Shown here: in pieces, positions 153 through 29,048 of the stretch
Position numbering within the stretch: position 1 is the stretch's first letter
Layout: each line of letters starts with the position of its first letter
NCBI GenBank assembly: GCA_016871015.1
Contig: VFZX01000043.1
Span: 1 to 32,439 of the forward strand
From: Acidobacteriota bacterium
GTDB taxonomy: Bacteria > Acidobacteriota > Terriglobia > Bryobacterales > Bryobacteraceae
Length of the DNA: 32,439 nt
Direction of reading: 5' to 3'
Notes under the pieces: generated by a model
What the model saw: the letters and a program-made list of their open reading frames with translations, nothing else
The model's database searches: none
Told to the model about the DNA's origin: nothing
Program-made: the position numbers and the translations under genes

Positions 153-3100
153 ATGCAGAAACTGGGGATGGCCTTTCTGGCTTTGGGGTTGATTGGAGCC
201 GCCCTCGGGCAAAGCTCCTACGGACGGCTGACCGGGCGTGTCACGGATCCGCAGGGTGCGCTTGTGGCCGGCGCGGCGGTGAAGCTGACGCAGACTGACA
301 CCAACATTCAAGTGGCGGGGTCGACGAACGGCGAGGGACTGTACGACTTCCCGAGCCTGCTTCCGGGAGCCTACCGGATCGCGATCAGTATGGAGGGCTT
401 TAAGGCCTACACGCGCACGGGCGTCATGATCCGGGTCGGCGATGTGCTCACGGTGGATGTGCTGCTCGAAGTCGGCGCCGTGAGCGAGGCCGTGATGGTG
501 ACGGCGGAAGCGCCGCTGCTTGAGACCAGCAACGCAAGTGCGGGCCAGGTGATTGATAACAAGCAGCTCTCCGACCTGCCGCTGGCGGGACGTGGTGTCA
601 CCTACCTGATGCAGCTCTCCCCGACGGTGATCTCGACCAACGCGCCGATGCACGGCTGGCTGCCGCAGGCGCGAGGATCGGTATCGGATCTGGCGGTGGG
701 CGGCTCGCGGACGCGGTCGAGCGAGTTCACTCTCGACGGGATCCCGAACATGGAGGAGGGTGGTACGATCGCCTTTCAGCCGCCGCCGGAAATGATCCAG
801 GAGTTCCGCGTGCAGACGGCGGCGTACGACGCCTCGCTCGGGCGGTTCACCGGAGCCAGCATCAATATGGTGCTCAAGAGCGGGGCGAATGATTATCACG
901 GGAGCGGATGGTTCTCGCACTTGAGCCGTCCGCTGATGACGCATCCGTTCTTCGTGAACCGGAACCTGTACGACACAATCTCGGGTCCGCCGACGCCTCA
1001 GAAGCGAAGCCGGCTGTGGCCAGCGACCAAGACGAACCGCTACCGGGCGCAGTTGGGCGGTCCGGTGCGGATCCCCAAGCTCTATGACGGGCGCAACAAG
1101 ACGTTTTTCAGCTATGGGAACGACTTCATGCTGCGGACGTTCGCCAACATCTCGACACAAACCGTGCCGACGCCGGAGCAGCGGCGTGGGGACCTTTCCG
1201 GACTGCTGCGGATCGGCGCCTCCTATCAGATTTATGATCCCGCGACCATCGCCACGGCGCCGAACGGCCGTTTCTCGCGGCAGCCGCTGCCAGGCAACGT
1301 CATTCCCGCGAGCCGCATTTCGCCGCTGTCGCAGCAGTTGCTCACGCATTATCCGCTCCCGAATGCGAGCGGAACCGTGGACGGCCGGAACAACTTCTTC
1401 ACCACCACCGCAAGCATCATCGAGTATTGGGCGCACATGGCGCGGGTGGATCAGGTAATCAACGAGCGCCACAGGTTCTACGTCTCGACCAGCTTCATGC
1501 GGACCGACGGCGACCAGGGACGGAACCTCGCCAACGACGCGTTGGGCAACCTCTCGATCAACAAATACACAGGCGCCGCCTTCGACTACGTGTGGATGGC
1601 GCGTCCGGACCTGGTCGCCAACTTCCGGTACGGATTCACCCGGATGCGCTCCGGAGGATGGCCACCCACACTGGGCCTGGACCTCGCCGCCGCCGGGTTC
1701 GCCAGCTCGTTCGCCGGCCGGCTGGACCGGACGCGCACGGCGCTGCCGGAGGTCAACGTCGATGGGTACGCCGCAATCGGTACGAACCTGGTATCAAACT
1801 CGGCTTTCAACAACCATTTCGTAAGCGGATCGGTATCGAAGAGCGCCGGTGCGCACACGCTGCGGGTGGGCGGCGAGTACCGGGTGCTGCTCGACAACAA
1901 CTTCAACCAGGGCAACTACCCGGGCAGCTTCACGTTCGGCACGCTGTGGACGCAGGGTCCACTCGATAATTCAACTCCTGCGCCGATCGGCCAGGGGTTG
2001 GCCGCATACCTGCTGGGACAACCGACCGATGGATTCGTGGATGTCAATGCAAGCCAGGCGGAGAAGTCCACGTATTGGGGGCTGTACCTGCAGGACGACT
2101 GGAAGGCGACGCGGAAGCTGACGGTAAATATGGGGCTGCGGTATGAGGGCGAGGGTCCGACGACGGAGCGCTACAACCGGTCCAACGTCGGGTTCGCGTT
2201 CGACGCCGTGAATCCGGCTGACGCGGCGGCGCGGGCCGCGTACGGGAGGAATCCGATTGCCGACATCCCGGCGGACCAGTTCCGGCTCCGTGGCGGGTTG
2301 CTATTCGCAGGGGACGGTGGCAACCGGCGGACGCTGTGGAAGGGCGACTACAACAACCTGTCGCCGCGCTTGGGAATCGCTTATCAATTGAACCAGCGGA
2401 CCGTGGTCCGCACGGGCTACGGGATTTTCTACGAGACGCTGGGAGCCGACCGCAGCGATTCCGGCCAGCTCGGCTTCAGCCAGCGCACCCGGCTCAATCC
2501 GTCGAGCGACAACGGGCGGACGTTCAGTGCCACGTTCGCCAATCCGTATCCGGCGGGGCTGCTGGCGGCGCCGGGCGCCTCCGGCGGGCTCACCACGTAT
2601 CTGGGCCTCGCGCCAGGCTTCTTCCTGCCCGAGCGGCGGAGTGGATACATGCAGCGCTGGGGATTCAGCGTCCAACGGCAGGTGGGAACGAACTGGCTCG
2701 TGGAGCTCGGCTACACCGGCAACCGTGGGAACAAACTGGGTCTCGTGCGCGACTACAACGCGCTGCCGCTGCAGTACCTCAGCCGGTCCACCGAGCGCGA
2801 TCTGGACACGATCAACGCACTGTCGCGCAACGTACCGAATCCGTTCCGCGGGATTGCCGAGTTCTCATCGAGCCCGGCGTTTCTGAATAACGCGAACCTG
2901 GCGCGGAGCCAGCTCCTCCGGCCGTATCCCCATTTCACCGGCGTGAGTTCGACGGCCAGCACAGGCTTCTCCTGGTACCACGCGGGGCACATCCGCATCG
3001 AGCGGCGGTTCCGTGGCGGATACTCGCTGTCCGGGCACTATACGTGGTCGAAGTTCATGGAGGCGATCGATCTGCTCAATGGCGCTGATCCCCAGCCGCA

Positions 3101-3656
3101 TCACGTCATCTCGCCTCAGGACCGGCCGCATCACATCGCCCTCAGCAGCCTCTTCGACCTGCCGTTCGGCACGGGCCGGCGGTGGCTGGGGTCCCTGCCA
3201 CGGGCGGCGGACACGGTCCTCGGAGGCTGGAGCGTCAACGCAATCTATCAATGGCAGAGCGGACCACCGATCGGATTCGGCAACGCGCTCTACCGGGGAG
3301 TGCTCGCGGACCTGGTGATTCCCTACGCAGACCGCCGGGTGGAGCAGTGGTTCCGCACCGATCAGTTCGAGCGCCGGACCACCGCTCAGTTGGAGTCCAA
3401 TTTCCGGGCGTTTCCTTTGCGGCTGACGGGCCTGCGCGCCGATGGGTGGAACAACTGGGACCTGGCACTGTTCAAGGACATCACTCTGACTGAGAAGGTG
3501 AAGCTACAGCTCCGTGCCGAGGCGGCGGATGCGTTCAATCACGCGATGTTCAATGCGCCCAACACGGCTCCGGTGAACACTGCGTTCGGAACGGTGGTGG
3601 CGACCATCTGGACCGAGCAGCGGAAAGTCACGGTGGCGGCGAAGCTGTTTTGGTAG
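153..3656 (+). CDS. Oar-like TonB-dependent receptor with N-terminal carboxypeptidase-regulatory domain
   Basis: This 1167-residue protein is predicted to sit in the outer membrane. A signal peptide (about residues 1-19, ending LGQ) is followed by a carboxypeptidase-regulatory-like beta-sandwich (about 22-108, with GRVTDPQGALVAGA and a PGAYRIAI strand), a plug-like region (about 110-240, with LSDLPLAGRG and FTLDGIPN), and a long beta-barrel with alternating aromatic strands. The C-terminus ends in an aromatic residue (KLFW), typical of Bam-assembled proteins. Acidobacteria encode many such paralogues, often linked to uptake of oligomers, but the substrate cannot be read from sequence. No clear TonB box was seen, and no tonB/exbB lies nearby. 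The start is chosen by the signal peptide and the TACAAT box. It converges on gcdH and starts 52 bp from an IS end. Confidence 0.88.
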   Translation: MQKLGMAFLALGLIGAALGQSSYGRLTGRVTDPQGALVAGAAVKLTQTDTNIQVAGSTNGEGLYDFPSLLPGAYRIAISMEGFKAYTRTGVMIRVGDVLTVDVLLEVGAVSEAVMVTAEAPLLETSNASAGQVIDNKQLSDLPLAGRGVTYLMQLSPTVISTNAPMHGWLPQARGSVSDLAVGGSRTRSSEFTLDGIPNMEEGGTIAFQPPPEMIQEFRVQTAAYDASLGRFTGASINMVLKSGANDYHGSGWFSHLSRPLMTHPFFVNRNLYDTISGPPTPQKRSRLWPATKTNRYRAQLGGPVRIPKLYDGRNKTFFSYGNDFMLRTFANISTQTVPTPEQRRGDLSGLLRIGASYQIYDPATIATAPNGRFSRQPLPGNVIPASRISPLSQQLLTHYPLPNASGTVDGRNNFFTTTASIIEYWAHMARVDQVINERHRFYVSTSFMRTDGDQGRNLANDALGNLSINKYTGAAFDYVWMARPDLVANFRYGFTRMRSGGWPPTLGLDLAAAGFASSFAGRLDRTRTALPEVNVDGYAAIGTNLVSNSAFNNHFVSGSVSKSAGAHTLRVGGEYRVLLDNNFNQGNYPGSFTFGTLWTQGPLDNSTPAPIGQGLAAYLLGQPTDGFVDVNASQAEKSTYWGLYLQDDWKATRKLTVNMGLRYEGEGPTTERYNRSNVGFAFDAVNPADAAARAAYGRNPIADIPADQFRLRGGLLFAGDGGNRRTLWKGDYNNLSPRLGIAYQLNQRTVVRTGYGIFYETLGADRSDSGQLGFSQRTRLNPSSDNGRTFSATFANPYPAGLLAAPGASGGLTTYLGLAPGFFLPERRSGYMQRWGFSVQRQVGTNWLVELGYTGNRGNKLGLVRDYNALPLQYLSRSTERDLDTINALSRNVPNPFRGIAEFSSSPAFLNNANLARSQLLRPYPHFTGVSSTASTGFSWYHAGHIRIERRFRGGYSLSGHYTWSKFMEAIDLLNGADPQPHHVISPQDRPHHIALSSLFDLPFGTGRRWLGSLPRAADTVLGGWSVNAIYQWQSGPPIGFGNALYRGVLADLVIPYADRRVEQWFRTDQFERRTTAQLESNFRAFPLRLTGLRADGWNNWDLALFKDITLTEKVKLQLRAEAADAFNHAMFNAPNTAPVNTAFGTVVATIWTEQRKVTVAAKLFW

Positions 3657-18443: not shown

Positions 18444-21400
18444 ATGGGGTTGTCCGTTCGTAAGGTGATGTCATCCGCTTTGATCGCGGCTTCAGTGTGG
18501 GGCCAGGGGACCGCCACCGTGACCGGAGTTGTAACGGATTCCGCCGGGGCGGTGATTCCCGGGACGCGCATCGTGGTCCGGCACACCGGAACAAACGCGT
18601 CGCGCACCATTGACACGAGCCCCGAGGGCTCATTCACCATTACGAACCTGCCGCCGGGACCGTATGAAGTGCAGGCGGGCAAGGATGGATTCCGCGCGCA
18701 CAAGACGACCGGTGTGGTGCTCGAGTTGAATCAAGTGCTGCGGCAGGACATCGTCCTGCAGGTGGGCACGGTCACCGAGTCTGTGAGCGTCACGGCCGAG
18801 GCTGCGCTCGTGAACACCGAAATGGGCGCCATCAAGGGCGACGTGATCACCAACCAGCAGATCAACGAGCTTCCACTCGACGGCCGCGACTTCTTTGACC
18901 TGGCGCTGATGGTGCCGGGCGTTGTCCCCGCGGCGCAAGGCGGCCAGGGGTCAGGCCTGAACGTCAACGGAGCGAGGTCGGACTCCACCAACTACTCGGT
19001 TGACGGATTCAACAACCGGAATCCGCGGGGCGCGGGAACTTATGTCCGGCCCAATATGAGCGCGATGCAGGAGTTCAAGATGGAAGTCTCCGGATTCTCC
19101 GCCGAGAACGGCCGGATGGCGGGCGGGGTGATGAACATGGTCCTGCGCTCGGGAACGAATCAATACCACGGCGACGTCTTCGAGTACATCCGCAACGACA
19201 TTTTCGACGCGCGCTCGTTCTTCGACCAGCGGAAGCTGCCGCTGCGGCGCAACCAGTTCGGCGCGACGCTGCATGGCCCGGTGCGGATTCCGGGGTTGTA
19301 TAACGGACGCGACCGGACGTTCTTCATGTTCAGTTGGGAATCCTACCGCGAGGTTTTGGGCCAGAGCATCATCGGCAACGTGCCGACGGTGTTGCAGCGC
19401 GAGGGAGACTTTTCGCAGTCGGTGGTGCCGATCACCGGCGCCAAGCTGTACCTGCGGGATCCGCTCGCCACAGGGACGTGCAGCGCCACGTCGGCGGCTG
19501 CTTGTTTTCCAGGCAATGTCATGCCAAAGAGCCGGTTCCACCCGATCGCCCTGAAGCTGATGGAATACTATCCGTTGCCGAACCGGCCCGATCCGTCGAA
19601 CAACTTCATCAACACGGCGAGGGACTTTGACCGCTTCAACAGCTTTATCGTCCGGATCGATCAACGTTTCTCTGCCCGGGACAACCTGGCGTTCCGGATG
19701 CAGCACCGCCTGGCCAACAACACGAATCCTTTCGCGGGCAGCGGGCTGGCGCAGTGGCCGACCTTTGTGCGGGATCCTCGTTACCTGGTGGGGCTCGACT
19801 ACACGCATATGTTTGGCCCCACGCTGCTCATGGAGATCCGGGGAGGCGTGAGCCGGAACGCGACGACCGAGCGCGAGAAGTTCCAGGGCCAGGACGTTGC
19901 CGGGCAGTTGGGAATCATGGGGACGACCGACGATCCCTTCCTGCGGGGATTCCCGCGTTTCACCGTGCAGGACTACCTGCCGATCGGAGCTGCCGCGGCG
20001 CAACCAGTCGCCTACCACGTCACTGTTTTCCAGTTGAGCAACAAGTTCACCTGGATCAAGGGGAAGCACAATCTGAAATGGGGCTGGGACATCGAGCGCG
20101 TCCGCTTCAATCAGCCTTACTTTGACAATTCGCGCGGGACGTTCAATTTCAACCGCAACTGGACCAACCACTCGGTAGCCGATTTCCTCCTGGGCATGCT
20201 GCAATCGACGACACGCAATGCCGAAGGCACGCGGAACTATCTGCGCTCCTTCAGCACCGGCGTGTTTTTCAATGACGACTTCAAGGTGACGCGCAACTTC
20301 ACTCTGAATCTCGGCATGCGGTACGAGCTGGACCTGCCGCCGGTGGACCGCTACGACCGCTCGTCGAACTTCGTCGATGAGTTCTCGAAGATCCTGATCG
20401 CGGATGACCGCGCGCTGCCGAATCTCCAGGAGCGGCTGACGCGGTTCAACGTCCAGGGCAGAACCGCGCTCGCGCGGGACTTCGGCTATCCGCGGTCCCT
20501 CGTGTGGGCCGACAAGATCAACTTTGCACCACGCCTGGGATTCGCGTGGCGCGTGCCGTACTTCAAGAGGACAACAGTGGTCCGGGGCGGCTACGGGATC
20601 TTCTTTACGGGCCATCTGCTGAATCCGGTCCGCACGGCGTTGATGACCGGGTTCCCGTTCTCGGTGAACCAGACGTTCTCGCGTCTGGCGGCGGACACGT
20701 CGCTGGTCACGCTGTCCAACCCCTTCCCGGATGTCCGCACGACGGAAGCCAACGCGACCAATTCGAACGGTTATGATCCGAGGCCGCCGTTGGGGGACTT
20801 GCAGAGCTGGAACTTCACGATCGAGCGGGAGTTGGCCACGGGGTGGGCGATCGAGCTCGGGTATGTCGGGTCCAAGGGCACGCACCTCGGGCGCCAGTAC
20901 GACCTCAACCAGCAGATCCGTTCGTTGGCCGCCTATCAGAACAACATCGCGTTTCCGCGTCCGATCTCGGGGATCAATACGATCAACTACTTTTCGTTTG
21001 GCGCGAACTCCAACTACAACGCAGGGCAGTTTTCGTTGCGGCGGCAGATGCGCGGTGCGTTCATCCGGTTCAACTACTCGTTCAGCAAGTCGATTGATGA
21101 TGCTTCGCAGTTGACCGGGCAGTCGGCGGGTGGATTCCCCGGGGCGCAGAACGCGCGGGATCTCAAGTCTGAGCGGGCGCGTTCGGATTTCGACCGCCGG
21201 CAGGTGATCACCGCGGTGTATTCGACGCCAGTGCCGTTTGGGCGTGGACGCCGGTTCATGAGCGGCGCGCGGGGCATCACGAACGGGATCGTGGGGGGCT
21301 GGCAGTTCTCCGGGAGCGCAAGCATCTACACCGGGCAGGCGCTGACCATTACGTCAGCGAACGTGGACGCGAACCTTGGCGAGTCGCTGCGACCGAACCG

Positions 21401-21812
21401 GATCGGATCCGGCATACAGCCGGAGATCCCGGGCGCGGGCCGCAAGGGCGTCGATTATCCATGGGTGAAGCTCGACGATTTCGAAGCGGTTCCGCGTTGT
21501 GCCTCGCGCAGTGTGTGTGAGGCGAGCGCCCACGGATTCACGCCGTTCAATTTCGGGAACTCGGGGCGGAACATTCTCGATGGTCCCGCGCATCACTACA
21601 TCAATATGGCGCTGCTCAAGAACTTCCGGTTCGACGAAAGGAAGAAGAACGTGCAGTTCCGCTATGAGTTGTTCAACATCCTCAACCACGCGAATTTCAT
21701 GTTGCCGGAAAAGCAGTTCAACGCCATCGGCGGCGGCCTGATCACCGGCGTCGTGGACCGGGGCCGGGGAGGGCCGCGCGTGATGCAGGTGGCTCTGAAG
21801 TTCGAGTTTTAA
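18444..21812 (+). CDS. Oar-like TonB-dependent receptor with N-terminal carboxypeptidase-regulatory domain (second copy)
   Basis: This 1122-residue outer-membrane protein has the same layout as the first copy: signal peptide (about 1-21, ending WGQ), regulatory beta-sandwich (about 24-105, GVVTDSAGAVIPG), plug-like region (about 110-235, with INELPLDGRDFFDLALMVPG and YSVDGFNNRNPRG), then a large barrel ending in the classical terminal phenylalanine (ALKFEF). The sequences diverge too far for a recent duplication. A TACPTSAAAC-type cysteine pair in the barrel (GTCSATSAAACFPG) and CASRSVC near the end could form loop disulfides. The ligand is unknown. Its last 71 bp overlap the 3' end of the convergent cupredoxin gene, so the terminal strand codons are constrained on both strands. 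Confidence 0.88.
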   Translation: MGLSVRKVMSSALIAASVWGQGTATVTGVVTDSAGAVIPGTRIVVRHTGTNASRTIDTSPEGSFTITNLPPGPYEVQAGKDGFRAHKTTGVVLELNQVLRQDIVLQVGTVTESVSVTAEAALVNTEMGAIKGDVITNQQINELPLDGRDFFDLALMVPGVVPAAQGGQGSGLNVNGARSDSTNYSVDGFNNRNPRGAGTYVRPNMSAMQEFKMEVSGFSAENGRMAGGVMNMVLRSGTNQYHGDVFEYIRNDIFDARSFFDQRKLPLRRNQFGATLHGPVRIPGLYNGRDRTFFMFSWESYREVLGQSIIGNVPTVLQREGDFSQSVVPITGAKLYLRDPLATGTCSATSAAACFPGNVMPKSRFHPIALKLMEYYPLPNRPDPSNNFINTARDFDRFNSFIVRIDQRFSARDNLAFRMQHRLANNTNPFAGSGLAQWPTFVRDPRYLVGLDYTHMFGPTLLMEIRGGVSRNATTEREKFQGQDVAGQLGIMGTTDDPFLRGFPRFTVQDYLPIGAAAAQPVAYHVTVFQLSNKFTWIKGKHNLKWGWDIERVRFNQPYFDNSRGTFNFNRNWTNHSVADFLLGMLQSTTRNAEGTRNYLRSFSTGVFFNDDFKVTRNFTLNLGMRYELDLPPVDRYDRSSNFVDEFSKILIADDRALPNLQERLTRFNVQGRTALARDFGYPRSLVWADKINFAPRLGFAWRVPYFKRTTVVRGGYGIFFTGHLLNPVRTALMTGFPFSVNQTFSRLAADTSLVTLSNPFPDVRTTEANATNSNGYDPRPPLGDLQSWNFTIERELATGWAIELGYVGSKGTHLGRQYDLNQQIRSLAAYQNNIAFPRPISGINTINYFSFGANSNYNAGQFSLRRQMRGAFIRFNYSFSKSIDDASQLTGQSAGGFPGAQNARDLKSERARSDFDRRQVITAVYSTPVPFGRGRRFMSGARGITNGIVGGWQFSGSASIYTGQALTITSANVDANLGESLRPNRIGSGIQPEIPGAGRKGVDYPWVKLDDFEAVPRCASRSVCEASAHGFTPFNFGNSGRNILDGPAHHYINMALLKNFRFDERKKNVQFRYELFNILNHANFMLPEKQFNAIGGGLITGVVDRGRGGPRVMQVALKFEF

Positions 21813-23592
21813 CCAGCGCCGCACCGCGGTACATGCCCATGCCGCAGGCGAACGTGACTTCGCCCGCGGGCTGAGGCGGAAGCTCGATCACGGTGATCTG
21901 GCCCGGGGGGAGCGCGCGCGTGATCCCGAGTCCGGCGAAGATAATCGAGCTGGCGCAATTCTGGGCGTCCACCCGGTGGATCGCCAGACGCACCGGGCGG
22001 CCATCGGGGATCGTGATTCGCGCGGGGGTGTAGCCGGATCCATTCACGGTGATGCGGACGGCATCCCCGGGCGGCGGCGCAGTGGTGACAGCGCGGCCCG
22101 GCGCGACTTCGATGTCGAACGGGAAGGTCAACACCTCACCGGCGCGTTTCACCTGGAACCACAGCCTGTACCGGCCGGGGTGCGAGAATCCGGTGCTGGT
22201 TTCGATTTCCGTGGGAGGTGTCGCGCCGAGGTGTGAGTGCTTCCACGGACCTTCGGCGGGGGGCGTCTCCTCCTGAGGATGCGCATGGATGAATTCGCGC
22301 TTATCGCGGCTGATAATCATCACGTGCGCCCAGGAGCCGAGGAAGGGCTCGATGTCCGGTGAGGGGAGTTTGAAACGGAAGCGGATATCGCGGCCGGTCT
22401 CGAGCGGGCCATCGTAGGTCATTGACACTGCGGCCGGCGGGGCCGTGCTCCGCCGCTGTCCGCCGCCCGTGACGGTAAAGCGCGAAACCGTGTGCGCCGC
22501 GCCGGGCGCCGTATAGCCCGCGAAGATCCAGTACGTGTCCCGCGGACCGAAGTCGTAGCGGAGCTGGTAGAGTCCGGCGCCGATGGGCTCGGGATGCACG
22601 TGATCGAAGATGGAGAGATCAGAGGAGACGGCGATGACGTGCATCGGCCGCTCGTGGACTGTTTCAAGCACCGGGTGTGGCGTCTCGAAGATCAGTTCCG
22701 AGCCGCGGCGGTGGAGTTTGAGCCCGTTGTCCTCGCCAGCGGCCTGGTATGACGCGAGATCCACGGGTTGGAACTCGCCGCGAAGGGATGGCCCGGTCAG
22801 GTACGGATACTCGGGCTCCCCGTGCGGAGACGTGGCGAGGAAGTAGGCGTAGGTTCCGCCGGGATACTCAGGAGTCCGCGCGAAACGGCCATTGTGCTCA
22901 TCGAGATCACCGCCGCCGGCCGAGAATTCGTAGTCCTCGGCGAACGTGCCAGCGGGGAATTGCGGGCCGGCCGCGGGACCTTCCTGTGCAGGTGTCAGCT
23001 CAACCCGGTTTCGCGCGGTGCGGCGGGTAGCGTTGCGAATGCGGTAGCTCGAGCGGAACCGGCGGAGGCGGCCAGCGTCATCCCAACCATATGGCCCGTA
23101 GATTGGAAATCCGTCGATGGCGTATCCGATCAATGGCGAATGCCGGCCGGTATCGCGGAGGAGTGCTGCCAGCAGTGGTGGGGCGGGACCACGGCGGCTG
23201 GCTGTTGCGGCGGAGTCGGCGTGCCACAGGTTCTGGCCCCGGAACGAAGGTCCGGCGTTGACACTGTAGATGGGGACGCCGTTGATGAACGTACCCGCGA
23301 CCGCCGGCGCGGCGGCGGGACGTTTGGCTGGTTGGGGTGCGCGCGGGATCCGGTAGACGAACTTGCGCGGGGCTTCTTCTTCTGGACGTGTTTCCAACAT
23401 TCCGAACGACTGCATTGACAAGCCCGCCGACTCGACGTACGCATAGGCTTCATCGGACCAGACGCGGTGCACTTCCGGGAGTGCGCGTCGCAACGCTTCG
23501 TTATCTGCCGGTTGGGCGCGGATCCAGGACGCCGTCGCAGGGTCCGCGGACAGGATCCGCGCCACAACCAGGAGGAAAAGCGTCCGGACCAT
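21742..23592 (-). CDS. Secreted YHYH-family protein with C-terminal cupredoxin-like domain
   Basis: This 616-residue protein carries a signal peptide (about 1-21). The N-terminal part (about 40-260) is YHYH-like: RIPRAP, FINGVPIYS, NLWHAD and HSPLIGYAIDGFPIYGPYG are recognisable, but the segment that should hold the C-x-GHP and YHxH residues is missing between WHAD and HSPL. The middle (about 300-480) has two His-rich beta repeats (DHVHPE, FIHAHPQE) like those next to copper or heavy-metal proteins. The end (about 508-592) resembles the small cupredoxin domain found beside copper ATPases, with Cys542 in NCASS and CGMGMYRG near 580; metal binding is inferred. About 23 residues after the expected end (ALVK) are encoded antisense to the receptor gene. 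Its ATG shares one base with the TGA of the upstream gene, so the two are coupled. Confidence 0.75.
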   Translation of the reverse strand: MVRTLFLLVVARILSADPATASWIRAQPADNEALRRALPEVHRVWSDEAYAYVESAGLSMQSFGMLETRPEEEAPRKFVYRIPRAPQPAKRPAAAPAVAGTFINGVPIYSVNAGPSFRGQNLWHADSAATASRRGPAPPLLAALLRDTGRHSPLIGYAIDGFPIYGPYGWDDAGRLRRFRSSYRIRNATRRTARNRVELTPAQEGPAAGPQFPAGTFAEDYEFSAGGGDLDEHNGRFARTPEYPGGTYAYFLATSPHGEPEYPYLTGPSLRGEFQPVDLASYQAAGEDNGLKLHRRGSELIFETPHPVLETVHERPMHVIAVSSDLSIFDHVHPEPIGAGLYQLRYDFGPRDTYWIFAGYTAPGAAHTVSRFTVTGGGQRRSTAPPAAVSMTYDGPLETGRDIRFRFKLPSPDIEPFLGSWAHVMIISRDKREFIHAHPQEETPPAEGPWKHSHLGATPPTEIETSTGFSHPGRYRLWFQVKRAGEVLTFPFDIEVAPGRAVTTAPPPGDAVRITVNGSGYTPARITIPDGRPVRLAIHRVDAQNCASSIIFAGLGITRALPPGQITVIELPPQPAGEVTFACGMGMYRGAALVKTRTSEPPASRAALPGPGPRRR

Positions 23593-25493
23593 CAGCGGAT
23601 GCTCACGTTGACCGCGTTGCTCGGCCGTCCGGCGGCGGTGATCACCACGGGGACTGAGCCGCGTCCGGCCAAAGCGCGCGGAACCTGGACATTGATTTGG
23701 TCCACGCCGGGGAAAGTCCCCTGCGGACCCGCGTACGAAACGGGTGCGTCGAGGCCGCCAATCGTGGCCTTGACTTCGGATGACCCGCCAAGGCCGCTGC
23801 CGGAAAGCGCAAGATAGACTTGATCGCTTTCAGGGCCGAGGTCGATTGCGGAGGACAAGCTCTCAGACGTCTGCTGGCTGCCGCGAATCCGGGTGACGTA
23901 GCCGGATGCGGTAGTGGCGGCGTCAGCAATGAACAGGTTTGGATAGCTGTTCAGGATGTGCAGATTGGTCGTGTAGGAGACGGCGCCGTTGTTGAGGATG
24001 GCGGCCGCGTATCCGGTGGCGGTGTCCGGCGGGATCCGGTAGTTCAGTTGGGTGGGCGAAGCGTAGTAGATCTGGGCCGGGCGAGAGACGCCAGCCGAGT
24101 CTCGCACGGTGATGGTTGCGCCACCAAGGGTTGTTGGCCAGTCCGGTATGGGAGCGGTCGCGGTGGAAGTGGCGAGCGCCGCGCCGAACATCGCGTAGGC
24201 GGTCATGATGGAGCCGGGAGCGGCGGGTCCGCGCTCGTTGGATGCCGCGGAGACGTGTACGGCGGTTTGGACCACCGTGCCGCCTCCAACGTCGCGGGAG
24301 TTGCCGGTGCTATAGGTTGCGCCGTCGAGGAAGTTGAACACGGTGACGCCATTCACCCAGAGTCCTTGTGCACCGAGTCCGGTGTTCGGCTTGCTGGCTG
24401 CCGGAGCAGGTGTCCGGGGGAACTGCATCTGGTTCGTCTGGCGCGCTGGGAAATTGCTGAACACGCCTCCGGCCATAGTCGCGTCGAACCAGGGTCCCAT
24501 GACGTAGGTGCCCAAACCGTTCGAGTTCACGAACACCGCGGTGTCGCTGTAGCGGATTCGCTGTGTTTCCGCGGGCACCTCGGCGGCCGAGCCGCCGGAG
24601 ACCCGGGCTCCGGTGGGGATGTTGGTTGGCCAGGTGGTCGACGGCCCGGCGGAAGGATCGAATCCACTCGACACACGGGCGGGCTGTGTGGCGCCACCGG
24701 TCTGCCAGGAAGAGAGCGCCGGACTCCGGTCCGCCGCGCCTGGCTGGGCCGCTAACGACGCGTTGAAGTACTCCTGGACGCCCGCCGGGACATTCTGGGT
24801 CCGGCCTCCGGTGAGAGTTCCGAAGAGCTGTCCACCGAGAATGTAGGGGAATACGGGCCGCCCCTGGTCATCGATGGTCACGTGATATGCGTAGGTGCCT
24901 TGGGGGAACTCGGGAGTCACCTCCTGGCGGCCGTTGTACTGGTCGAGGTCGCCGGATCCGGCGGCGTATTCGTAATCCTCGATATAGCGGCCGATTGGGA
25001 ACTCGGCGTTAATGGGAGGTCCGAATTGGTTGGGATTGAGCTGAAGCGGAACGTTCGCGTGGGCGGACTGGGTCCATTCGGGGATCGATGTCCGCGCGGT
25101 GATGGAGCGCAGGCGGAAGCTGGAGCGCAGGCGCCTGACTGCACTGCTTGCGTTGGAGGCCTCCGAATAACCATAGGGGCCGTAGATCGGATTTCCATCG
25201 AACGCCCATCCGAGGATTGGAGAGTGGCTCCAGGGCGCCGCCTTCTCGCGGTACTGGATGCCGGTACGCGTGCTGCGCACGATCTCCAGGTTGTCCTCGA
25301 GTTGGGCCCTCAAGCAGGTGGGACTGGCGTGGTGGTGATATTCGCCTGTCTGGGGCTGGTGCCCTTGGCAGGCGTCAAAGGTCTGTGCTTCGCCGAAATA
25401 CGCGTCGCGGCGCCAGATGCCGTCGCCTTGTCCACCTGGCTGTGCAAGAGCGGACGTGGCAGCGAGGAAAACAACCGGTACGAGTGATCTCAT
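23592..25493 (-). CDS. Secreted YHYH-family protein with Solibacter-type C-terminal domain, modules in swapped order
   Basis: This 633-residue protein has a signal peptide (about 1-18, ending ALAQ). Residues 26-108 form the histidine module: WRRDA, FDACQGHQPQTGEYHHH, a CL pair at 60-61 and HSPILGWAFDGNPIYGPYG. The module that normally comes before it in this family (YSDTAVFV, FPRTPAP, GLWVNGVTVFNFLDGA) appears here after it, about residues 305-410. The C-terminal part (about 423-633, starting APGSIMTAYAMFG, with YYASPTQLNYRIP and PGVDQINVQVP) matches the TIGR03437 Solibacter domain. Biochemical function of YHYH proteins is unknown; it is presumably secreted or surface-attached. The ATG at 25493 gives the signal peptide; upstream in-frame GTGs at 25499 and 25496 are alternatives, the first sitting 8 nt after TATGGT. 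Confidence 0.78.
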   Translation of the reverse strand: MRSLVPVVFLAATSALAQPGGQGDGIWRRDAYFGEAQTFDACQGHQPQTGEYHHHASPTCLRAQLEDNLEIVRSTRTGIQYREKAAPWSHSPILGWAFDGNPIYGPYGYSEASNASSAVRRLRSSFRLRSITARTSIPEWTQSAHANVPLQLNPNQFGPPINAEFPIGRYIEDYEYAAGSGDLDQYNGRQEVTPEFPQGTYAYHVTIDDQGRPVFPYILGGQLFGTLTGGRTQNVPAGVQEYFNASLAAQPGAADRSPALSSWQTGGATQPARVSSGFDPSAGPSTTWPTNIPTGARVSGGSAAEVPAETQRIRYSDTAVFVNSNGLGTYVMGPWFDATMAGGVFSNFPARQTNQMQFPRTPAPAASKPNTGLGAQGLWVNGVTVFNFLDGATYSTGNSRDVGGGTVVQTAVHVSAASNERGPAAPGSIMTAYAMFGAALATSTATAPIPDWPTTLGGATITVRDSAGVSRPAQIYYASPTQLNYRIPPDTATGYAAAILNNGAVSYTTNLHILNSYPNLFIADAATTASGYVTRIRGSQQTSESLSSAIDLGPESDQVYLALSGSGLGGSSEVKATIGGLDAPVSYAGPQGTFPGVDQINVQVPRALAGRGSVPVVITAAGRPSNAVNVSIR

Positions 25494-25620: not shown

Positions 25621-28600
25621 CTACTGGATGGCGATGGTGGTGCCCGCCAGGCTCACATTGTTCCCCACGAGGAGATCGATGGGAACAGCGGCACCGGAAG
25701 GAACCGTCGTTCTGATGAACACGTTGATCTGAGTGACGCCGGCGACGAAGCCCGGCGCGGAGCCAGCGTATTCGACTTCATGCTCGATGCCGCCGATACG
25801 CACGCGGACAGGAAGCAGCGGACGCCGCAACTGCTGGGCCGTGGTGGGAACGAGTCCGTCGATTCCCGGAGGCGACACCGCGCCATCGCCCGTGGCGTAG
25901 ATGGTGATGATGGTGTCCTTCGCCGCCGCGGTGCCTGCCCCGTTGACCACGCCGTTCTGGTTCACGATAGCGCCTTGTCCGGCTTGGTTCAGCCGGAAGA
26001 TGCCAGGAACCGCGTCGACCACGCGCAGCTCGACCACATTGCCCACGACGCCCTGGTATTCCACCTGCACGCGTGTGCTCACGCGTCCGGCCAGTGCGTA
26101 TGGCGCCACGCAGTTGATCTGTGTCGCCGATAGGAAGATGAGCGCCCCGGGGATGCCGTCGAACAGCACGCGGACACCGGAGTTGGTTGTCGTCACCAGA
26201 CCGTTGGCATCCACGCGGATTCCGGCGGCCGCGGCCGGTCCCATGTTCTGTCCGAACAGCGTCAGGATCAGTCCGGGGGCGACAGCGGTCGGCTGGAAGG
26301 TGGCCGCGTGGACCACTTCACGGAGCTGCGGCGCGGGGACCTGCGAGATCACCAGCGTGACATTGATGACGCGCGTGGCTGCTCCGGCGCCCGGCGGCGT
26401 GAGGGTGATGGTCCCGGTGAAGGTTCCCGCCGCGAGTCCAGCCGGGTTGACGCTGACGTTTAGTGTCGCTGGAGTGGTGCCAGTATTGGGCGCCACGCTG
26501 AGCCATGCCGACTGCGGCTGGAAGGTGACGGTAAACTGCGTCGCTTCGGCAGCCGTGATGGCGAGAGTCTGCGCGGGAGGCGGCGTGCCGCCCGGCATGA
26601 AGTTGAAGGTCAGCGCCTCGCGGTCGGAGACGATCGGCGATACACGCGTGGTCACCGTGAGCGTGACGGGGATCAGGATGTTCCGGACGTTGGGTGCGTT
26701 CACCGGAGTGACCGTGATGGTGCCGACATACACGCCTGGCTGCAGATTGCCGGAATTGACCGTGACCGAGAGATCGCTCGGCGTGATGCCGTCAAGGGGA
26801 TTCACGGTGAGCCAGGCGACCGGGGAGGTGACGTTCACGGTGGCGTTGAAGGCGACACGCCCATCCGGAGTGAGCCGCACGGCGAGAGTCTGCGCGGCAG
26901 GCGCCGCGCCGCCTTGCGACTGCGTGAAGGTGAGTGCCACCGGAGTGACTGTGAGATCCTGGGCCTGGCCCTGTACGATGAGGATCACGGGGACGAAAAT
27001 TGGGGCGTTGGCCGCGGAGCTGGCGATGGCGATGATGCCCGTGTAGACGCCCGCGCCGAGGGCTCCCGGATTCACCGCGATGATCGTGTCGGTGCCGCCG
27101 GTGGTCCCTTGCGTCCGCGACATGACGATCCAGGGATTCCCATCCGCGGTGCTGTTGGTCAGAGTGTAGGCGATCGCGCCTTGTGTCGCGCCGATCGGCA
27201 ACGACTGATTGTCAGGCGGAGTCCGGCCGAGAACGTGGTTGAAGACGATAGCCGCCGTGGACACAATCAGTCCGGGCGCGCCGATCACCTGCAACCGGAC
27301 GGGAATCACAATGCCGGGACTCGATCCATCCCCGGGAGCGACCGTAACGGTACCGGTATAGACGCCCGGGGGCAGGCCGCCCGCGTTGCCACTGATCACC
27401 AGGTTCGCTGGGGTCGTGTTCTGGGACAGGGCCGCGCCCAACCATCCGCCGCCGCTCACTGCCGATACCGTAACACCGAGTGCCGCGCCCGTGGAGGTGA
27501 CTTGAAGGGTGCGCGACGGCGCCGTGGCAGCGCCCTGCTGATGTACAAGGGAGACGTAGTTGTCGCTGACACGGAGTCCCGGTCCGCCGGTGACAACGAA
27601 GGTGACGGGGATATTGATCGGGCTGTTGCCGAAGTCGCCCGAGAGACGCACATTTCCGTTGTAGGTGCCGGCCGGGAGACTGGCGGGTTCGACGCCCACC
27701 GAAACCGTGGCGGGCGTGCCGATCCGCGAAGGCGTCGCATTCAGCCAGTTGCCGCCGTTGGTGGTCTGCACTTCGACCGTCACGCCCGTGGTCGCGCCGG
27801 TGCTGGTGACAACGAACGCCTGGCGGGGAACTGCTCCACCGCCGGTTTGGAAGCTGAACCGGAGTCCGTCACCGGGGGTCGCGGTGAGGATGGGATTGTT
27901 GCTCACCCGGAGTGTCGCGACGACTTCGAGAGGACTGTTGGTGACCGCCGGCGAGATGATCCGGATCCGGTTTTCGTAGGTGCCCGGCGCGAGTCCAGCC
28001 GGATTGGCGGAGAAGGTCAACTGCTGCGGCGTGACGAGAGCCGCATTGGCCGCCGCGACGCTGAGCCAGTTGCCGCCGGAGGTGCGAACCAGTTCCACCG
28101 TGAAGGCGACGTTGGCCGACGTGCTGGTGACGAACAGCGTCCGGTCACCCGGCGCCGGACCTCCGGTCTGGAAGTCGAACGAGAGCGCGCTCGGAGTCGC
28201 GGAGAGCCGCGCCTCTTCGAGTACCTGAAGCACGACAGCTATCTGGAATGGGTTGTTTGACGCTCCAGGCGCGATGATGCTCACGGTTGCGTTATAGGTT
28301 CCCACCGCGAAGTTCGCGATCTCAGCCACCGAGAGCGTGACAGTTGTGGGCTGTGTTGTACCAGCCGTCGCGTTCACCGGTTCGATCCGGAGCCAGTTGC
28401 CAGTGCCCTGGATCTGCGTCACCGCCGCCGTGAACGTGATGCCCGCCGCAGTAGCCCGGACGCTCACAGGTCGCGCTGCGGGGACTTGCCCGCCGCGAGA
28501 GAACTGGAACACCACCTGCTGCGGCTCGGCGGCGATCAAGGGCGTGTCGGCCACCACGAACGTCACCGCGATGTTGACCGCCGTGCCCGTCGGTGGTGTG

Positions 28601-28926
28601 AGCGTGATGGTGCCGGTGTAGGTTCCCGGATCGAGCGCTGGAACGGTGAACGGATTCACCACCACGTTCAACGCACCGGACGCCACCATTTCCGTGGGAA
28701 CCACGAGCCAGTTGCCGCCAGCGCCCGTGGCTGTCCTGGTGATGCGGACAGTCGTGCCCGGAACCGAAGAGGTCACGTTCACCACTTGGCCCGGGGGGAG
28801 CTGGCCTCCGCCAGGACGCTGGTGAATGAAATAGAGCCGATCGGTGCTCGCCGACAGCGTTTGCGCCGCCAGCGGAGCGGTGCCCGCCAGAAGCAGGCTC
28901 AAGGTCAGGAGGGTTCGTGCGGTCAT
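25621..28926 (-). CDS. Secreted protein with eight BACON-like beta-sandwich repeats and Solibacter-type C-terminal domain
   Basis: This 1101-residue protein has a signal peptide (about 1-22, ending PLAAQ). About eight tandem units of 100-108 residues follow; each has an L-F core strand, G-x-x-P, a GNWL or AWL-x-V motif, a TP-x-x-L stretch and a (L)xxGTYTGTI strand ending in V-x-L-x-V. That is the pattern of BACON-type immunoglobulin-like domains, linked to glycan or mucin binding in Bacteroidetes. The last 235 residues (VAPGLILTLFGQNMG, LSATQINCVAPY, VTQINVFI) match the TIGR03437 Solibacter domain, here with a second sub-part. A surface adhesin or carbohydrate-binding role is inference. GAGGA 5 nt before the ATG at 28926 supports this start; an in-frame ATG at 28938 is possible. 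It is followed by a hairpin and preceded by another. Confidence 0.8.
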   Translation of the reverse strand: MTARTLLTLSLLLAGTAPLAAQTLSASTDRLYFIHQRPGGGQLPPGQVVNVTSSVPGTTVRITRTATGAGGNWLVVPTEMVASGALNVVVNPFTVPALDPGTYTGTITLTPPTGTAVNIAVTFVVADTPLIAAEPQQVVFQFSRGGQVPAARPVSVRATAAGITFTAAVTQIQGTGNWLRIEPVNATAGTTQPTTVTLSVAEIANFAVGTYNATVSIIAPGASNNPFQIAVVLQVLEEARLSATPSALSFDFQTGGPAPGDRTLFVTSTSANVAFTVELVRTSGGNWLSVAAANAALVTPQQLTFSANPAGLAPGTYENRIRIISPAVTNSPLEVVATLRVSNNPILTATPGDGLRFSFQTGGGAVPRQAFVVTSTGATTGVTVEVQTTNGGNWLNATPSRIGTPATVSVGVEPASLPAGTYNGNVRLSGDFGNSPINIPVTFVVTGGPGLRVSDNYVSLVHQQGAATAPSRTLQVTSTGAALGVTVSAVSGGGWLGAALSQNTTPANLVISGNAGGLPPGVYTGTVTVAPGDGSSPGIVIPVRLQVIGAPGLIVSTAAIVFNHVLGRTPPDNQSLPIGATQGAIAYTLTNSTADGNPWIVMSRTQGTTGGTDTIIAVNPGALGAGVYTGIIAIASSAANAPIFVPVILIVQGQAQDLTVTPVALTFTQSQGGAAPAAQTLAVRLTPDGRVAFNATVNVTSPVAWLTVNPLDGITPSDLSVTVNSGNLQPGVYVGTITVTPVNAPNVRNILIPVTLTVTTRVSPIVSDREALTFNFMPGGTPPPAQTLAITAAEATQFTVTFQPQSAWLSVAPNTGTTPATLNVSVNPAGLAAGTFTGTITLTPPGAGAATRVINVTLVISQVPAPQLREVVHAATFQPTAVAPGLILTLFGQNMGPAAAAGIRVDANGLVTTTNSGVRVLFDGIPGALIFLSATQINCVAPYALAGRVSTRVQVEYQGVVGNVVELRVVDAVPGIFRLNQAGQGAIVNQNGVVNGAGTAAAKDTIITIYATGDGAVSPPGIDGLVPTTAQQLRRPLLPVRVRIGGIEHEVEYAGSAPGFVAGVTQINVFIRTTVPSGAAVPIDLLVGNNVSLAGTTIAIQ

Positions 28927-28995
28927 GGTTTTCCTCATATAGCCGTCTAGCACGTATCGTACCAAAACTGAAACATAAAGAAATAAAAATGTTTT

Positions 28996-29022
28996 GGGCG
29001 GGACCGTTGCCGGTTCCCGCCC
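28996..29022 (-). terminator. Rho-independent-like terminator after the small secreted protein gene
   Basis: GGGCGGGA (28996-29003) pairs with TCCCGCCC (29015-29022), and an inner CCG/CGG extends the stem to 11 bp with one bulged T and a 4-nt loop. On the minus strand it is followed by AAAACATTTTTATTTCTTT, a T-rich tail. It lies 26 nt past the stop of the 131-residue protein gene. Confidence 0.65.
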
Positions 29023-29048
29023 GCTCATGGACCGCGATGAATTTTGTT

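Follow-up and report, generated by a model that had tools for sequence, protein, structure and literature searches.

The protein encoded on the minus strand at positions 23592 to 25493 of a 32,439-nucleotide contig from an Acidobacteriota bacterium (VFZX01000043.1; this whole stretch is called the window below) is almost certainly a true circular permutation of a YHYH protein (Pfam family PF14240). Judged from its sequence, it has the same two modules as canonical family members, in reversed order and with a clean cut between them. The first-pass annotation had noticed the swapped order and called it an apparent circular permutation; both readings stand. As an overall explanation, it is very likely that an ancestral event in the Acidobacteriota turned an extracytoplasmic YHYH protein into this circular permutant. 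At the sequence level a circular permutation shared by one clade is confirmed, and no permuted YHYH protein is reported in the open-access literature that we searched (subscription papers were not covered). The gene, its parts and its neighbor are laid out as follows.

23592..25493, minus strand: permuted YHYH protein gene (633 amino acids, P0001); open reading frame (ORF) and translation confirmed, ATG start.
25440..25493, minus strand: signal-peptide-like N-terminus, residues 1-18, recognized by eye from the sequence, with no predictor.
24816..25427, minus strand: C-terminal half of the canonical YHYH fold, placed first in this protein (residues 23-226), from the C-module hidden Markov model (HMM) and PF14240.
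25314..25379, minus strand: FDACxGH...YHHH...C segment, residues 39-60, from conservation counts and the zinc-site prediction in the excerpt of PMC7824862.
24714..24815, minus strand: opening portion of the new linker (about residues 227-260), the start of which weakly resembles canonical C-terminal tails.
24312..24713, minus strand: old N-terminal half, now second, residues 261-394; N-module HMM match at 308-394, leader identified with hhalign.
23595..24254, minus strand: Soli_cterm domain, residues 414-633, from a TIGR03437 match.
21742..23592, minus strand: downstream canonical-order YHYH and Cupredoxin_1 paralogue (616 amino acids), from a domain scan; its ATG overlaps the stop of the permuted gene by 1 nucleotide.

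The chain opens with motifs that belong to the second half of canonical proteins: GDGIWRRDA at residues 23-31 and FDACQGHQPQTGEYHHH at residues 39-55. PF14240 matches residues 11-208 over profile positions 34-183 of 193 (E 2.6e-42), and the score of 145.4 bits is above the Pfam gathering cut-off of 25. The old N-half follows, with a leader that begins SSWQTGG and a core that reads GPW...VNGVTVFN...LDG; the module around VNGV is the one placed before the YHYH half in canonical proteins. Its motif VNGVTVFNFLDGA lies at residues 380-392, about ten residues from the 368-390 first assigned to it. The chain closes with the Soli_cterm domain, which scored 113.2 bits, above the curated cut-off of 29.05.

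To compare module order across the family, we built HMMs of the two halves from 22 swapped proteins (set A1) and scanned them against the ORFs of the gathered loci. We also built a canonical profile from eight canonical-order relatives (L008, L048, L078-L082 and L192), which share with the swapped proteins both modules, the conserved Asp and His residues and, by eye, an exported-looking N-terminus. All 37 distinct swapped proteins, the window's included, matched the canonical profile as pieces in reversed order, and none had the N-part of PF14240 ahead of the C-part along the chain. Because its module order is reversed, the window protein is a permuted variant and not a canonical PF14240 member. 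In the stretch tested, it matched profile positions 117-292 at residues 3-206 (226.4 bits) and then positions 23-115 at residues 276-374 (61.7 bits), so that the cut falls between neighboring profile columns. After rotation in silico, the protein gave a single match over positions 23-292, with 297.9 bits. The same rotation produced one continuous match in 32 of the 37 swapped proteins and two collinear pieces in the other five (L026, L033, L035, L036 and L040). The eight canonical proteins showed the opposite behavior, a control that is not independent because the profile was built from those proteins.

Once identical module stretches were removed, the cellular loci held 49 ORFs with the C-half before the N-half, 46 with the N-half first, 49 with the C-half only and 12 with the N-half only. 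In 45 of the 49 C-then-N ORFs the C-half match covered more than 150 columns, and none of these was contained in another; because 45 distinct proteins have the same order, the permutation is not a local accident. Among viral loci, of which the best-scoring 80 of a longer list were used, all 64 distinct ORFs with both modules had the canonical order, 17 had the C-half only and none was C-then-N. These counts are not frequencies, because more than one search contributed loci and the viral set stops at the top 80 of that list. The first-pass annotation had held that many YHYH proteins with the same order would refute a permutation. Such proteins are indeed numerous, but the 41 tested form one derived clade, so that compared with other family members they are still permuted.

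Compared with canonical proteins, the permuted ones have their new ends in the loop between the modules. The two halves lie 2-10 residues apart in nine canonical-close proteins, whereas 54-84 residues separate the end of the C-half match from the start of the N-half match in the 37 swapped proteins. In most canonical-close proteins, about 18-25 residues within the C-half are also missing (C-HMM matches stop near 40-46 and resume near 64-67). The first part of the linker continues the alignment with canonical C-terminal tails (hhalign, 99.7%). Its later part, beginning at the SWxT motif, aligns with the leader that canonical proteins have behind their signal peptide, as assigned by eye (98.3%). 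These alignments lend modest support to the idea that the linker would consist of the old chain ends joined together. Cyanophage-like YHYH structural proteins (IMG/VR loci L107-L186 and phage records) have the same two modules and a large change at about the same site. Among the best 80 loci, 60 of 68 rows have 181-310 residues inserted between the halves, where the permuted proteins have chain ends, and the other 8 have -7 to 8 residues there; the 68 rows include near-copies. Since the viral inserts sit at about the same site as the cut, the inter-module loop tolerates large changes. In loci L107-L186, for example L112 and L146, the cyanophage-like structural proteins reach about 2,900 residues and have a glycine-rich repeat insert of about 240 residues or more at about the permutation site.

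The permutation apparently left the likely metal-site residues intact. Of the 41 permuted rows, all have D40, H53 and H55 and 40 have H45, and all four positions are kept in 10 of 10 canonical-close rows; C42 and C60 are present in all 41 permuted rows and in six of the ten canonical-close rows each. The excerpt of PMC7824862, on a jumbo phage, describes a triad of conserved His residues plus a conserved Asp in this domain, with predicted Zn2+ binding, and suggests that the domain is a metal-dependent hydrolase; its one mention of circular permutation concerns DNA methylases. We take D40, H45, H53 and H55 to be this putative triad and Asp, a match made by reading because the residues are unnumbered in that excerpt. 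On this basis we tentatively propose, as a plausible assignment short of a probable one, that the permuted protein binds metal through D40/H45/H53/H55. Its action would be extracytoplasmic, and it might serve as a metal-dependent hydrolase or a metal handler. A possible but somewhat doubtful alternative accepts the permutation and holds that YHYH is a binding domain, for carbohydrate or a surface for instance, in which the His and Asp residues are structural and neither catalytic nor metal-handling. The grouping of YHYH domains with carbohydrate-binding and host-recognition domains in the excerpt of PMC7029224 fits that alternative, as do the phage versions, which are structural proteins and in some cases have altered His residues by eye. 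The near-invariance of the His/Asp set in both permuted and canonical-close rows, and the presence of a cupredoxin paralogue in the same operon, argue the other way. The excerpt of PMC11992049 only lists the YHYH family in diatoms.

Several observations weigh against the circular permutation as we have described it. The window protein's own N-half gives no PF14240 match by itself. The swapped N-half also resembles the cupredoxin-type N-half (hhalign, 98.2%, E 3.4e-14), a weaker similarity to a more distant paralogue. No N-C-N or C-N-C intermediate was present among the ORFs of the gathered loci (other genomes were not searched for one). Each linker alignment includes 40 module residues, so that tail and leader rest on about 15-20 new columns. 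AlphaFold2 models of the permuted protein (mean predicted local distance difference test score, pLDDT, 50.6; C-half about 70, N-half mostly under 50) and of a canonical protein (mean 51.1) were too poor to superpose; their input alignments were shallow, containing only the window and related-locus sequences, and that of the permuted model held four full permuted rows and 30 C-half fragments. No convincing relative was found in the PDB, by sequence or fold. With the low-confidence permuted model, Foldseek matched phage YHYH proteins in BFVD and nothing in the PDB at E <= 0.001; antibody matches in the PDB (best E 0.0015) were judged to be chance. Finally, the context families discussed below (OmpR-type two-component, LTXXQ and DUF411) occur in only a few loci.

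Some of these points would suit a protein in which the first half folds alone and the second module is a convergent or decayed look-alike, that is, a YHYH protein that has been truncated and carries a linker domain of unrelated origin: the N-half shows lower conservation, is poorly modelled and goes undetected by PF14240 in the window protein. We consider this very unlikely. An hhalign comparison of the swapped and canonical-close N-halves gave 99.9% probability (E 4.6e-32) and that of the two C-halves 100% (E 4.4e-86), whereas the swapped N-half against the canonical C-half gave 0.4% and the other cross pair 0.1%. None of the 41 permuted rows varies at the G, P and W of GPW, the N and G of VNG or the D of LDG. 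Three stand-alone permutants, in which the chain stops shortly after the module, also retain it. PF14240 detected the first half of the window protein and not its second; the second module was detected in several relatives. In these (G168, G191 and others), PF14240 profile positions 2-54 or 1-54 match downstream of 47-183 or 43-183 in one frame, and L047, L258 and L259 have two PF14240 stretches each.

Trees of the two halves bear on a different origin, in which an N-half was captured from another YHYH gene, such as the operon neighbor, and added behind a truncated C-half protein. The raw material for such a fusion exists, since a second YHYH gene lies directly downstream of 23 of 27 long permuted genes and loci L212 and L213 have two permuted genes in tandem. 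The main tree had 59 rows in rotated register, comprising 41 of 45 permuted proteins, 10 canonical-close proteins and, as outgroup, 8 of 14 cupredoxin-type paralogues; Q_L219 and K_L262 were flagged as long branches. In it, the 41 permuted proteins formed one clade (100/100) with the canonical Acidobacteriota protein L048 as sister (99/92), requiring one change of module order. The stand-alone permutants L047, L258 and L259 (99/87) were sister to the 38 long ones (95/95). A quick 60-row tree with all 14 outgroup rows recovered the same single permuted clade (support 99 in the Shimodaira-Hasegawa-like approximate likelihood ratio test, SH-aLRT); L258 and L259 were left out of it, and L047 branched first. 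The N-half alone (112 columns, few for the number of rows) again gave one permuted clade (SH-aLRT 96) with L048 as sister (93), and so did the C-half alone (209 columns; 99 and 82). The shared sister points to a common ancestry of the two halves and is evidence against shuffling; this agreement between the separate half-trees halved the already small probability that we gave to that origin, which is now very slight.

Identities averaged over 37 permuted rows agree: for each half they are higher with the canonical-close set (N 0.32-0.40, C 0.49-0.56) than with the neighbor type (N 0.20-0.26, C 0.39-0.47). The operon neighbor was ruled out by identities and trees as parent or N-half donor. The first-pass suggestion of shuffling inside one operon must therefore be dropped: the permuted proteins are one clade spread over several Acidobacteriota families, and the neighbor is a more distant paralogue. 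The genome is a draft in 720 contigs, but an artefact of assembly or rearrangement has a negligible probability, because the order recurs in 44 more distinct proteins encoded by other genomes.

A single event in an Acidobacteriota ancestor very likely gave rise to the circular permutant. The mature chain would have been re-cut in the loop between the N-half and the metal-site half, and a linker would have come to connect the old C-terminal tail with the former start of the mature chain; a signal peptide now precedes the metal-site half. Given the weak similarities of its parts, the linker probably holds both old ends, and the permuted chain is expected to fold back to the same fold. Soli_cterm, perhaps an adaptor, would have been gained after the N-half in one branch or lost in the stand-alone branch. 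All four long-form proteins tested for TIGR03437 were positive (the window's, L004, L005 and L006, in which it is the C-terminal domain), and none of L047, L258 and L259 was; the long form was assigned by ORF length. These three have open frames of 416-429 residues, and L047 has a lipobox-like start by eye. A natural permutant that forms a single clade with stand-alone members argues that neither YHYH half is dispensable and that the old chain ends should be close enough for a linker to span them. It also argues that the loop between the modules can be left open and that selection maintains the likely metal site. The permutants are thus a natural experiment on a poorly understood fold and offer ready-made constructs for crystallography and metal assays, the stand-alone L047, L258 and L259 being good candidates for crystallography.

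The permuted order was found in one group of soil and water bacteria and apparently stems from a single old event. Taking a continuous A1 match ending at profile position 378 or later as permuted order, we found it in 5 of 396 Acidobacteriota genomes drawn phylum-wide, in 7 of 147 from the class of G488 and in 21 of 348 from the class of G400. Some genomes recur among these samples, and the counts are lower bounds because only the best 4-13 candidates per genome were scored. At least five Acidobacteriota families have permuted proteins (f1, the window's, and f2, f71, f92 and f95). No continuous A1 match was present in 294 Planctomycetota genomes (34 with some match), and 147 genomes from the class of G452 gave canonical and partial matches only (two with some match); Verrucomicrobiota, which may have canonical proteins with a comparable leader, and eukaryotes were left out of the genome searches. 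Where Planctomycetota encode the two halves in a single frame, which is the case in seven genomes (G593, G626, G655, G660, G670, G708 and G792), N comes before C. A Deinococcus plasmid protein has the canonical order by eye, its N-half scoring only E 0.63. Within the family to which the window belongs, 38 of 200 genomes have PF14240 in any order, and YHYH proteins were found in bacteria, in phages and, by annotation, in giant viruses. Locus L263 (G128:C371) holds an apparent remnant of a permuted gene, in which the first C-half residues run into the linker and most of the C-half is gone.

The gene downstream of the permuted one in the window belongs to the same PF14240 family and, as the first-pass annotation had said, keeps the usual order; this was read from the sequence, as Pfam detects only profile positions 88-183 in it. 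By identities and trees it is a more distant canonical YHYH-cupredoxin paralogue and not the parent of the permuted protein. Most of the FDxCxGH...YHxH segment is gone from this type (eight relatives counted), and by eye from the window's copy. D40 and H45 fall in a gap in 6 of 8 cupredoxin-type rows, and His stands at H53 in one and at H55 in two; the His of HSP (7 of 8) and the D of DG (8 of 8) are kept. A C-terminal Cupredoxin_1 domain was present in the two downstream proteins scanned, those of the window and L227. The overlapping genes of the window (TGATG) encode a site-bearing permuted partner and a site-less canonical partner, and eight other pairs overlap by 4 nucleotides.

Among 29 permuted genes checked, 27 were of the long type, and 23 of these had another YHYH gene directly downstream on the same strand, with its first possible start -4 to +113 nucleotides from the stop (start positions being mechanical choices); in most cases the two genes touch or overlap. 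Of these downstream genes, 21 gave canonical or C-half-only matches and two were another permuted gene; in L212 and L213 the tandem permuted genes are followed by a canonical paralogue. A sulfatase gene separates the pair in L226. L261, L005 and L006 had no YHYH gene directly downstream (in L005 a reduced relative scores under the HMM threshold), nor had the stand-alone L258, L259 and L047's region (L229).

No strong functional context emerged around the permuted genes, the 62 neighbor proteins tallied (of 154) being of scattered families. OmpR-type regulators 60-76% identical to that of L226 occur in 4 of 21 regions, L226 counted (the window and L211-L230), LTXXQ proteins in two (L226 and L222) and DUF411 in one (L217), which for this minority of loci hints at envelope or metal stress. 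In L211, L219, L226 and L228, from families f1 and f71, genes for related response regulators and histidine kinases lie near the permuted gene. The permuted protein may act together with the coupled cupredoxin paralogue, which lacks the His triad. That the permutation gave a new capability seems unlikely to us: the metal-site half would stand at the new mature N-terminus, the end of the N-half would be freed for the Soli_cterm adaptor, and the permuted site-bearing and canonical site-less cupredoxin proteins of one coupled operon would form a two-part extracytoplasmic metal device.

An Rfam scan gave no match at gathering thresholds, and a promoter and terminator scan gave no promoters and two terminator-like sites, fewer than in shuffles. 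The upstream gene at 25621-29028 (minus strand) encodes an unrelated 1135-residue protein with BACON_2 repeats and its own Soli_cterm, a domain that lies outside the YHYH fold. Two large proteins encoded at 18444-21812 and 153-3656 (both plus strand) share 27% identity and are, we presume from their appearance, Oar-type outer-membrane receptors.

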